A stretch of 63,119 bases of DNA, taken from Bacillota bacterium (lineage in GTDB: Bacteria; Bacillota; Clostridia; Caldicoprobacterales; Xylanivirgaceae). Positions 440-6,426 of the stretch are shown piece by piece. The position numbers and the translations under genes were made by a program. Within the stretch, counting starts at the first letter, position 1. The number at the start of each line of letters is the position of its first letter. The notes under the pieces are model-generated. The model searched no databases, was not told the origin of the DNA, and saw only the letters and a program-made list of their open reading frames with translations. The stretch spans positions 1 through 63,119 of the forward strand of contig JAMOAB010000119.1 of the NCBI GenBank assembly GCA_023621995.1. The letters run 5' to 3'.

Positions 440-1347
440 ATGCCTACTACCATTGTAAATTACAATGAAGAAATAATCAATTTTTTAGAAGATGTAAATT
501 ATGGGATGAGCAAACCACAATTTAATCATCTTGCTACAATAATAGAAGGCATTATCAATATTGGTGATAAGGTATCTATTTCAAAGATTGCAGAGAATAT
601 TGTTAAGGCCAAAGATAAAAGCTGTATCTCTCGATTTTTAAGTAATTCTCCCTGGGATGATGAATTGCTTAATTACAATCGTTTAGCCTATATAAAACAA
701 CTTTTGAATAATGAATTAGAATCCAATGATATTGGTTTTATTGTGATTGATGATACAGTTAATCAAAAGAATATTAGAACTAAATCAATGGAAGCCTTAG
801 ATTTTCATTATTCACATTCTCTAGGTAGAGCCTGTTGGTCCCATTGTGTAATAACTTCACATTTTATGGCAGGACCTTACTCAATACCACTGCAATTTAA
901 ACCCTATTACAGGGAGAAAAAATGTGAAGAACTTGAGATACCTTTTAAAGTAAAACAGATATTGCCAAAGAATTCATACAGAATTTTGATAAACCATCTA
1001 AACTTGAAATAATATATATCCTTATGGATAGCTGGTATACTAGTAATTCATTAATAGATGAGGCTTTATCAGAGAATTACCATTTGATTGGTGGGGTAAG
1101 ATCTAATCGAAATTTCTACCCCGATGCTAATAAAATTAAAATCTCTGAATTTGCCACTAATCTTGATCCAAATTCCCTAGACTCCGTTACCGTCAGGGGC
1201 AAAGAATACAAAGTATATCGTTATCAAGGTAAGGTTGCCCAAACTAATAATATGGTGCTTTTAATATCATTTGAAGTTAGAAAAGATGGATTTGAAAAAC
1301 CTGTATACATTATAGGCAAAAACCCAAGGATGAATGGATTGTTATAG
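440..1347 (+). pseudogene. DDE transposase (IS4/IS701-like), frameshifted and 3'-truncated
   Basis: Two frames together give most of one transposase. The first (440-1012) carries the first catalytic Asp in IVIDDTVNQK and a block typical of IS701/IS4-superfamily transposases. It then loses frame near 945-962. The second frame reads AKEFIQNFDKPSKLEIIYIL from 964 and continues through LMDSWYTS, with the second catalytic Asp. The apparent ATG at 1024 is internal to the protein, not a start. Similarity stops after VYII near 1311, so the third catalytic residue (Glu) and the right end of the IS are missing. The last codons to 1347 read out of frame into a recombinase fragment. The RBS AAGGAAGG and ATG at 440 look genuine. 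Non-functional. Confidence 0.82.
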
Positions 1348-2117
1348 AAAATGCCCATGAAGCTATTATTTCAGAAGAACTATTTAATATAGCCCAGGAG
1401 ATACTTGATAATAACAAAGAGAAATCTGAATTTAAAATAACAAGACATGATATGAAAAGAGATCCAGTTAATAAATACAAAGGTGTAATTTTTGATGCAA
1501 ATACGAACCTACTTTTAATTAGGAATGGGGTAAGAAGCAATAAGAAGAATGCCAAGTTTTACTATTATAAGTTTACCAATGAAGAAAACAATGGTATTTT
1601 ACTTGAAACTCCTTATATTTCTATAATGGAAAGTGATTTAAACAATCTAGTAATAAAGATGTTGAAAAATGTACTCAGCATTGATGCAAGTGGAGAAGAT
1701 TGTAAAGATAGAATTATTGATATATGCAAAATGAAAATTGAGGTGGTAGAAAAAAATCGCAAGTCTATTTCTCTTAAGATTTCAAAACTTAATTCAGATT
1801 TGAAAAAATTATATGAAGATTATAGTTTGGGAAAGATTGAGAAAGAAGACTATCTTCAAAAAAGAATATTAAATAGAAAAGACCTAGCCATCTATGAAAA
1901 GAACCTAAGTAATCTTGACATTGAAATCCTTTTAATAGAAGCTCAAGCTGAAGAGGAGATAGGATTATTTGATAATCTATTTTCCAATAAAGACATCAAA
2001 CTAGATGAAAATATTATCCAGAAATATATTGAACGTATTGATGTATATGATAATGAAACTATAGAAGTTAGCTTAAAAGGCTTTTTAGGTGGAAGGGAGA
2101 TGAGGTCAAGTGATTAA
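1311..2117 (+). pseudogene. Large serine recombinase, C-terminal fragment fused to IS debris
   Basis: From about 1314 the frame reads RQKPKDEWIVIENAHEAIIS, a hallmark of the recombinase domain of TndX/TnpX-type large serine recombinases, then a coiled-coil (about codons 130-210) and a terminal YIERIDVYDNETIEVSL strand. The N-terminal catalytic domain and first part of the recombinase domain (roughly 280 residues) are absent because the truncated transposase abuts here. The ATG at 1452 is only the first in-frame Met, with no good RBS. The stop overlaps the GTG start of the intact recombinase by 8 nt, so the two were originally a translationally coupled tandem pair, as is common in clostridial integrative elements. 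Confidence 0.8.
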
Positions 2118-3654: not shown

Positions 3655-3690
3655 TGTATCATACCCTTGACACGATAGGGTACAGGGAAG
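3655..3690. other. Candidate recombinase attachment site / element-chromosome junction
   Basis: Inverted arms TACCCT (3662-3667) and AGGGTA (3677-3682) flank TGACACGAT. The right arm runs into GGTACAGGGAAGACT, which encodes the Walker A residues G-T-G-K-T of the downstream Res gene. Coding identity starts abruptly at 3679, directly after an in-frame TAG (3676-3678). An imperfect palindrome at the end of an integrase-bearing segment, inside an interrupted gene, is what an attR/attL hybrid looks like. The core dinucleotide cannot be fixed from one junction. Confidence 0.5.
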
Positions 3691-6426
3691 ACTTATACCT
3701 ATATCAGGACTATGTATGAATTATATAAGACCTATGGCTGGAGCAAATTCATAATAATTGTTCCCTCAATTGCCATTAGGGAAGGAGTACATAAATCCTT
3801 TCAGATGACAGAGTATCACTTTATGAATCTATATGGTACAAAAATTAGATATTTTATATACGATTCTAAGCAGTTACATAAAATAGATCAATTTGCTTCT
3901 AATTCAGGTATTAATGTAATGATTATAAACTCCCAAGCTTTTAACTCAAGGAGTAGAGATGCTCGGAGAATATATATGGAATTAGATGAATTTGGCTCAA
4001 GACGTCCCATAGATGTAATAGCTCAGACCAATCCCATACTCATAATAGATGAACCCCAATCAGTTGAGGGGAAAAAGACCAAAGAAGCACTAAAATCTTT
4101 TAATGCTCTATTGACATTGAGATATTCGGCAACACATAAAGAGGAGTTTAATAAGATTTATAGACTAGATGCCTTGGATGCCTATAATAAAAAACTGGTA
4201 AAAAAGATAAGAGTAAAGGGAGTAACAGTAAAGGGTTCTACGGGAACTAACGAGTATATCTACTTTGAGGGAATAGATTTGAGTAAGAAGGAAAAACCAG
4301 TAGCTAGGATAGAGTTTGAAGTAAAGCAAAAATCGGGCACAATAAAAAGAATTTCTAGAACCGTAGATGAAGGCTTTGATCTCTATACCTACTCTAATTA
4401 TATGGAACAATATAGAGGATATAGGCTGGCTGAAATAAATGGATACAAAAACACTATAAGTTTTACCAATGGAGTGACATTAAGTGCAGGGTATGTCCAA
4501 GGAGATATAGGCGAAATAAATTTTAGAAGGATACAGATACGTGAAGCTATAAAGTCCCATTTTGAAAGAGAGAAGGCTCTATATAATAGAGGTATAAAGG
4601 TATTGTCGTTGTTTTTCATAGATGAAGTGGCAAAATATAGACAATATGATGAGGCAGGCAATCAAGTTGATGGAATATATGGAAGGATCTTTGAAGAAGA
4701 ATATATAAATATCTTAAATGAATATATTACTCTATATGATGATCCTTATGTAAAGTATTTAAAAAGTATCGATGTTAAAGAAACTCATGATGGCTATTTC
4801 TCTATAGACAAGCAGGGGAGACTGATAGATCCAAAGGCTAAGGGGAAGGAAAAAGTATCCGATGATGAGTCAGCATATGGTTTAATAATGAAGGATAAGG
4901 AGAGACTATTGAGTTTTGAAGAACCTATTAGGTTTATCTTTTCCCATTCAGCATTGAGAGAAGGTTGGGATAATCCTAATGTATTTCAAATATGCACATT
5001 GAAACATAGTGATTCTACAATACGAAAAAGGCAGGAGGTTGGGAGAGGTCTCAGACTGTGTGTAGATCAAGATGGAAATAGAATAGACGAAGATACTCCA
5101 GGAATAGATGTACATGATATAAATGTGTTGACTGTCATAGCTAGTGAATCCTATGAGAGCTTTGCCAAGCAACTTCAATCAGAAATTGCTGAAACATTAT
5201 CCGATAGACCTCAAAAAGCTAATGCGGAGTTCTTCCAGAACAATATAATTAAAAACGAAAGTGGTGAGGAACTATTTATAGATAGAGATCTGGCCAATAT
5301 TCTTCATCGTTATTTCATAAGATATGAATATGTAGATAACGAGGATAACCTGACTGAAACATATTATAGGCACCTAGAAGAAGACAAGATAGAGTTACCA
5401 GAAGAATTTAGGGACTTTAAAGCAGGAGTACTCCAGCTGGTAGGAAAAATTTTTACTGGAGATACTACTTCACTTGTGGAGGATGGAAGGGCAGAGAATA
5501 TTAAAAAACTAGAGTTAAATGAAAACTTTAAGAAAAAAGAATTTCAGGAGTTATGGGATAAAATTAATATAAAGACGGCATATTATGTAGACTTTGATAC
5601 AGATGAGCTTATTAAAAATTGCATTACAGCTTTAGATAGAGATTTGAAGGTATCTGATTTAACCTATTATATAAAGGTTGGAGAGATGGAGTCTATATAT
5701 TCCAAAGAGGAGTTAGAAAGTGGGCAATCTTTTAAAATGCAAGAATCGGAAATCGATAAGGATTATTCTAGGATAACGACTACATTGAGATATGATCTTG
5801 TAGGACAATTGGTTGATGAGACTAAGCTTACAAGGAAAGCTATTGTGGAAATATTAAAGGGCATAGATTCTAATACTTTTTATCTATTTAGGAAAAACCC
5901 AGAGGAATTTATAATGAAGGCTTCAAGAATAATAAATGAACAAAAAGCGACTATGATAATAGAGCATATTACCTATAACCCTATAGATGAAATATTTGAT
6001 TCTAATATATTTACAAACAATACTTTGAAAGGAACTTTAGGAGAAGACACCATAGAGGTAAAGAAACATATTTACGACTATGTAGTTACTGATTCAAATT
6101 TAGAGAAGAAATTTGCTGAAGAGCTTGATACTAGCAAAGAAGTCTGTGTATATGCTAAGCTTCCCAGGGGATTTTTTATACCGACGCCTGTGGGTAACTA
6201 CAACCCAGACTGGGCGATTGTGTTTGAAGAAGACAAAGTAAGACATATATATTTTGTAGCAGAAACTAAAGGAGCCCTTGACTCTTTAACACTTCGTACA
6301 GACGGTATTGAAGCAGCTAAAATCCATTGTGCAAAAGAACATTTTAGGAAGATAAGCAACGGCACTGTAAAATATGAGGCAGTGGGAAGTTATGAAATGC
6401 TGATGGAGAAAGTATTAGGGAAATAA
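3679..6426 (+). pseudogene. res: Type III restriction enzyme Res subunit, 5'-truncated at Walker A
   Basis: Reads GTGKTYTYIRTMYELYKTYG from 3679, so the coding sequence begins inside the Walker A motif. The usual 75-100 residues before it are missing and an in-frame TAG precedes the junction. The longest ATG-initiated product would start at 3712 (904 aa) and lack the P-loop. Downstream motifs are intact: motif II LIIDEPQ, motif III YSAT, motif VI QEVGRGLRL, and a C-terminal PD-(D/E)xK nuclease centre NPDW...ETKG near residues 850-875. Res proteins pair with a Mod methylase to translocate on and cut unmodified DNA. No mod gene is in the window. Without a P-loop the protein cannot hydrolyse ATP, so it is inactive unless the upstream element is excised and the N-terminal codons are rejoined. 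Confidence 0.85.

Follow-up and report, generated by a model that had tools for sequence, protein, structure and literature searches.

The window analysed here, a stretch of 63,119 nucleotides, is the entire contig C50 of the draft assembly G000 (3.08 Mb, 175 contigs, 98.5% complete), of which our genome-wide searches covered a part. It carries a type III restriction subunit gene, res, without its beginning (Table 1). The 915-codon frame opens at 3679 with GTGKTYTYIRTMYEL, in mid-frame at the codons GGT-ACA-GGG-AAG-ACT, directly abutted by an in-frame TAG at 3676–3678, and ends with a stop at 6424–6426; the initial annotation, which had placed the start of Res coding identity at the G-T-G-K-T codons immediately after a stop codon, was right on this point. 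The product is helicase from Walker A on, and its ResIII and type III endonuclease (RE_endonuc) domains are present. The N-terminal roughly 100 residues that complete a type III Res are absent: EcoP15I Res can be aligned to it only from EcoP15I residue 87 on, the NCBIfam type III endonuclease model matches from profile position 69, and intact Res relatives have about 100 extra residues ending in ...NLTVEMET, followed by G(T/V)GKT.

Table 1. Features at the left end of the window, with coordinates on the window and the basis of each assignment.
Feature	Coordinates	Strand	Basis
HIRAN-domain protein, C-terminal piece at contig end	3..179	+	PF08797, E = 7.6e-9; no match to compared intact ICE DNA
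Broken IS transposase (DDE_5), two ORFs in different frames	440..1347	+	ORFs 440-1012 and 1024-1347; PF13546 on the first
SR2, middle serine recombinase of the triplet, C-terminal remnant	1308..2117	+	blastn to relatives
SR3, intact serine recombinase, third (external) of the triplet, 494 aa	2110..3594	+	PF00239 and PF07508; the external recombinases of 13 further elements are 78-93% identical
attR P arm TTGACACGATAG, holding TGACACG (3668-3674) and the in-frame TAG (3676-3678)	3667..3678	+	Relatives have this arm in front of HsdR, Res and further genes
GG crossover core, first two bases of the Walker A glycine codon	3679..3680	+	Deduced from attL/attR pairs of relatives
Type III restriction subunit Res, C-terminal ~90%, beginning in Walker A, first ~100 residues missing	3679..6426	+	ORF, domains and homologue alignments

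An intact serine recombinase had been reported upstream of res, and it is there, with 84 bp between its end and the res frame, not 120 bp. With Resolvase catalytic and Recombinase domains in an uninterrupted reading frame, SR3 has the predicted make-up of a large serine recombinase. It is the only whole member of its triplet in the window: SR1 is gone, and SR2 is cut mid-gene at 1308, from which point the DNA is 81–94% identical (blastn) to the recombinase region of six related loci (L022, L184, L185, L318, L325 and L333; an intact SR2 copy lies at 4763–6436 of L022). The IS pseudogene, a broken DDE_5 transposase, adjoins this truncation point, where matches to the DNA of relatives start. Positions 1–1307 gave no blastn match to the compared ICE ends of intact relatives.

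Searching the window genome for an attL or a P′ arm at up to two mismatches returned none, and the ICE coupling protein of G301 and Tissierella creatinophila has no match there, so that no conjugation module was recognised. The element in the window is thus a remnant derived from a triple-serine-recombinase ICE rather than an intact member of that group; relatives whose SR3 is 80–93% identical do have three serine recombinases in tandem at one end. Only the right end of the window's element survives in this genome, which most likely leaves res as a stranded fragment that is broken beyond repair, although the left end is missing from the assembly and a draft of this quality (98.5% complete, 175 contigs) could hide its attL.

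The TAG in front of res comes from the element itself, as the end of its att arm (CACGA-TAG), and is also found in relatives that split other genes. From the junctions, attP would read TGACACG-ATAG-GG-GGAA-CGTGTCA, with the central GG flanked by a 7-bp inverted repeat without mismatches. The window, with its GG-cored attR, holds one arm of this repeat (TGACACG), and the other half, CGTGTCA, occurs in the attL sites of relatives. An imperfect palindrome previously pointed out at the junction, TACCCT-N9-AGGGTA, is indeed present, but it is not conserved (relatives have TACCCT...AGGGCT, TTCCCT...AGGGGA and TACACT...AGGGAA); we rejected it as the att repeat, and it straddles the crossover by chance.

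The same split of res is found in relatives. Tissierella creatinophila DSM 6911 has the closest homologue of the window's res, cut at the same codon and preceded by TTGACACGATAG and three tandem serine recombinases, and its res N-half lies on another contig, after mod, where it ends in GAAATGGAAACAGG, followed by GGAACGTGTCATAATAGTG, DUF3801/PcfB and further ICE genes. G580 has both res halves on a single contig, together with an intact mod: the N-half with its attL is at 2027253, and the attR that precedes the C-half is at 2122872, 95.6 kb away. The initial annotation had suggested looking for an N-terminal Res stub with a matching core at the other end of the element; such a stub is present in T. 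creatinophila and G580. Its proposal that an element had been integrated exactly in the P-loop by a serine recombinase is supported by the attR arm and by the shared cut codon in these two relatives. The recombinase nearest to the window's SR3 sits in an HsdR gene (93% identical), whereas that of T. creatinophila is nearest to that of G580, so res has been hit at least twice at the same position.

Both gene halves were seen in ten relatives in total. On the same contig, attL/attR pairs flank elements in one gene in G301 (type I R, 70.6 kb), G143 (Mod, 11.7 kb), G242 (HsdM, 84 kb), G365 (HsdM, 67.6 kb), G403 (Res-type, 69 kb), G579 (HsdR, about 68.6 kb) and G213 (HsdR, 30.8 kb), as they do in G580, and the halves are on separate contigs in G299 and T. 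creatinophila. Joined in silico, the HsdR halves of G299 are in frame and share 286 of 329 and 200 of 214 residues with an intact paralogue that this genome also encodes. Separately, inside the G580 element interval, an ORF at about 10397–11998 of L339 (G580:C2:2050396-2051997) resembles, by eye, a TetM-type ribosomal protection protein.

To see how widely such junctions occur, we searched SR3 in 391 genomes of the class and the arm pattern CTTGACAYNANAGGG in 249 genomes of another order. The pattern occurs at 62 sites in the latter, more than chance would give, compared to 16 for its reversed control (tallied from the hit table), and nearly all of those with a serine recombinase upstream sit on a glycine codon; sites that had short frames and no recombinase were set aside as chance. 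Altogether, 39 arm sites have a serine recombinase upstream in the fetched DNA, and in 35 of them the GG starts a glycine codon in an open frame with a recognisable glycine loop. Targets were named with NCBIfam and PADLOC, plus the loop motif where no model matched. By these names, 25 of the 35 are restriction–modification (R-M) or CRISPR genes: type III Res (5), type I R (6), Cas3 (1), HsdM (8), Mod (3; L187, L328 and L329, called by motif and context) and type IIG (2); the call at L251 comes from near identity to L250. The other ten are SF2 helicases with weak restriction matches (2), unnamed methylase-like loops (2), ArsM (1), GspE/PilB (2) and ABC ATPases (3).

Within the window's own subgroup (14 elements with recombinases at least 78% identical), 12 targets are R-M genes; the relatives, with recombinases 78–93% identical, occupy either the Walker A of further restriction helicases or the loop that binds SAM in Mod and in a type IIG enzyme, and more distant ones occupy glycine loops that include those of HsdM and Cas3. 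When 34 recombinases are placed in a tree, they sort by loop type, with 4 label changes compared to 14.6 in shuffles, a contrast that near-copies inflate. Identical or near-identical recombinases occupy different genes (L187/L321 and L267/L271), which points to multi-targeting around a shared coding motif.

Several further sites were observed along the way. At L188:15795 (G166:C35), a related recombinase triplet lies in the Walker A of a Cas3 helicase and should disable a type I CRISPR system. An attL-type junction in L204 (G143:C4:4131-4148) follows ..IADLGEG in what looks like a dicarboxylate-type symporter, and in L264 (G560:C120, at a contig end) the same arm precedes the Walker A of KdpD, a potassium sensor, on a contig that ends before any recombinase. 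On plasmids, all SR3 relatives are below 60% identity, the best being a streptococcal plasmid record with such recombinases at 39%. IMG/VR held no SR3 relative by protein; its five exact arm matches, with neither an upstream recombinase nor a glycine-loop gene, look like chance and were rejected.

The junction in the window is very probably the attR scar of a triple-serine-recombinase ICE in a type III res, of which this copy is a stranded remnant. The ICE would enter res with a crossover at the GG of the first glycine codon in G-x-G-K-T, the family recognising DNA that codes for glycine-rich nucleotide-binding loops: mostly the Walker A of restriction helicases (Res, HsdR) in the window's subgroup, and the SAM loops of HsdM and other methylases, Cas3 and the loops of other ATPases in sister subgroups. 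Integration would cut the motor and nuclease off from the roughly 100 N-terminal residues, which presumably must inactivate restriction. Where relatives have an intact element, its precise excision would mend the reading frame, judging by the one HsdR joined in silico, whereas the res in the window is probably off for good.

A more mundane origin would be a simple deletion or an IS-mediated rearrangement, in which the 5′ end of res was lost by chance and the recombinase is an unrelated neighbour, as the IS pseudogene and other damage within 3 kb might suggest. However, the relatives refute the deletion reading, to which we give practically no credence: T. creatinophila and G580 have res cut at the identical base, and many other genes are preceded by this arm at the same loop codon. 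The initial annotation had instead cast the element as a reversible off-switch, comparable to skin-type elements or active lysogeny; on this reading it would still leave the gene, and res would be rebuilt whenever restriction is of use. In favour of this, SR3 is intact, attL and attR match each other in relatives, with one pair rejoining cleanly in silico, excision of this kind has been suggested by Ambroset et al. for ICEs inserted in hsdM (PMC4701971), and a Tn1806-like ICE has been observed as a circle (PMC12942858); against it, another had no detectable circle (PMC13006639). In the window genome, however, no intact pair of attL and attR around the gene halves, as in a skin-like element, was found. 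SR1 is missing and SR2 cut short, searches turned up neither an attL nor the coupling protein, and the one res N-half found sits on a different contig, joined to another helicase. Nothing, moreover, ties excision to a need for restriction. The off-switch is thus very improbable for this locus, and the accompanying claim that precise excision restores the gene holds, in silico, for the HsdR of G299 and is not supported for the window copy.

That res N-half, the sole one found in the window genome, lies on contig C147 as an in-frame fusion at the P-loop to a different SF2 helicase. Residues 1–104 of the ORF match type III Res (61%), the rest matches the other helicase, and the join lies at the P-loop, a few bases from the GG. 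The ORF itself (L167:12844-15438; C147 30843-33437) is intact over 864 aa, with a degenerate mod fragment before it, a DUF499 gene after it and an intact mod without res 5.5 kb upstream. We rejected C147 as the window's attL, as helicase coding sequence follows the core and there is no P′ arm; a natural family for the fusion was also rejected, as the one helicase homologue found has a different N-terminus and there was no viral match. The N-half on C147 may be the partner of the window's Res C-half, in which case simple excision cannot restore the window's res. The chimera may have arisen either by a recombinase pairing the attL of res with the attR of a helicase gene or by chance recombination through P-loop homology.

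The former origin would fit a broader possibility, that the recombinase triplet acts as a P-loop shuffling machine, pairing the attL of one gene with the attR of another to make chimeras of N-half and C-half. As different nucleotide-binding enzymes are cut at the same codon and frame, such cross-pairing would join halves of two enzymes. We consider this rather unlikely; if it were true, the C147 ORF (Res residues 1 to about 100 plus an SF2 helicase) would be a product, and the attL arrays of G580 and G213 the raw material. These arrays consist, in G580 (L338/L339; G580:C2:2027253, 2038163, 2040754 and 2044896), of four attL-type junctions with different P-loop gene stubs, the same arm and one attR downstream, and, in G213:C3, of three attL-type stubs of different P-loop genes upstream of a single attR.

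Why R-M genes dominate is a separate matter. The family may have been selected for landing in them, in that the loss of restriction or CRISPR would help its transfer or subsequent gene flow, rather than simply tolerating dispensable genes that have a loop motif in common; this is a tentative reading that we hold possible but short of probable. The subgroup's 12 R-M targets out of 14 compare to about 5 of 30 inspected genes with a loose attB motif (Fisher p = 2e-5), a motif that occurs 48 times in six genomes versus once in the control and is shorter than the true attB; those 30 genes are mostly UvrB, ClpX, ABC and RNA helicase genes, with about five R-M/CRISPR or possible defence genes. The clearly identified R-M targets, moreover, are all type I, III, IIG or CRISPR Cas3 genes, and loss of such a subunit should not cause self-cutting. 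Purging of insertions from housekeeping genes would, however, yield the same bias, sister subgroups enter ABC, GspE/PilB and ArsM genes, and site-specific recombinases were without defence enrichment in the survey of Durrant et al., a test that excluded the multi-targeting clade (PMC10083194). The Fisher comparison does not tell which of three causes lies behind the bias: a preference for certain sequences, the loss of harmful insertions by purging, or selection for knocking out restriction.

If it holds, the scheme offers a simple landing rule for this ICE family: it enters at codons for glycine-rich loops that bind nucleotides, and the genes concerned are mostly those for restriction and methylation. 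Such a rule would account for the varied targets listed in published work and tie integration to loss of host defence. The family is also a source of natural serine integrases whose att sites can be deduced, and restriction motors could be recombined at the P-loop by this route.

Among known systems, the closest are Tn1806 and related streptococcal ICEs, which have three serine recombinases and insert in hsdM with a GGG duplication (PMC3055811). Triple-serine streptococcal ICEs target hsdM, traG or mutT (PMC4701971), and Tn1806-like ICEs target snf2 or methyltransferase genes with short G-run repeats (PMC12942858). Shared with the elements described here are the three tandem serine recombinases at one end, the G-run core (GGG/GGGG) and the split R-M or methylase targets (PMC3055811, PMC4701971, PMC12942858, PMC13006639). 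Unlike them, the window's subgroup is found in Clostridia and mainly in the Walker A of Res and HsdR helicases; in the open-licence literature we found no description of the Walker A of Res, HsdR or Cas3 as a target of Tn1806-like ICEs, and nothing relevant on Walker A or hsdR targeting at large.

The intact relatives share with Tn1549-type conjugation modules the DUF3801/PcfB, RepA_N and T4SS coupling protein genes after the left junction, whereas none of the conjugation genes is left in the window copy; the integrase of Tn1549 itself is of the tyrosine type. Gene-intervening elements such as skin, the gerE gin element and the comK prophage are likewise site-specific insertions in coding genes that precise excision would mend. 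They differ from the present elements in that no sign of programmed excision was seen here, the element family conjugates and the window copy is without its left end. As in the multi-targeting, TndX-like clade described by Durrant et al. 2022 and excluded from their target-gene enrichment tests (PMC10083194), near-identical recombinases have several target genes; the DUF4368 typical of that clade is present in SR1 of T. creatinophila, and SR3 is without a DUF4368 match. Unlike in that clade, the sites here share a coding motif, the glycine loop, and R-M genes dominate. Thus, multi-target triple-serine ICEs (Tn1806, in hsdM and snf2) are already known, whereas the glycine-loop rule, the Walker A targets and a possible recombinase-made chimera look new.
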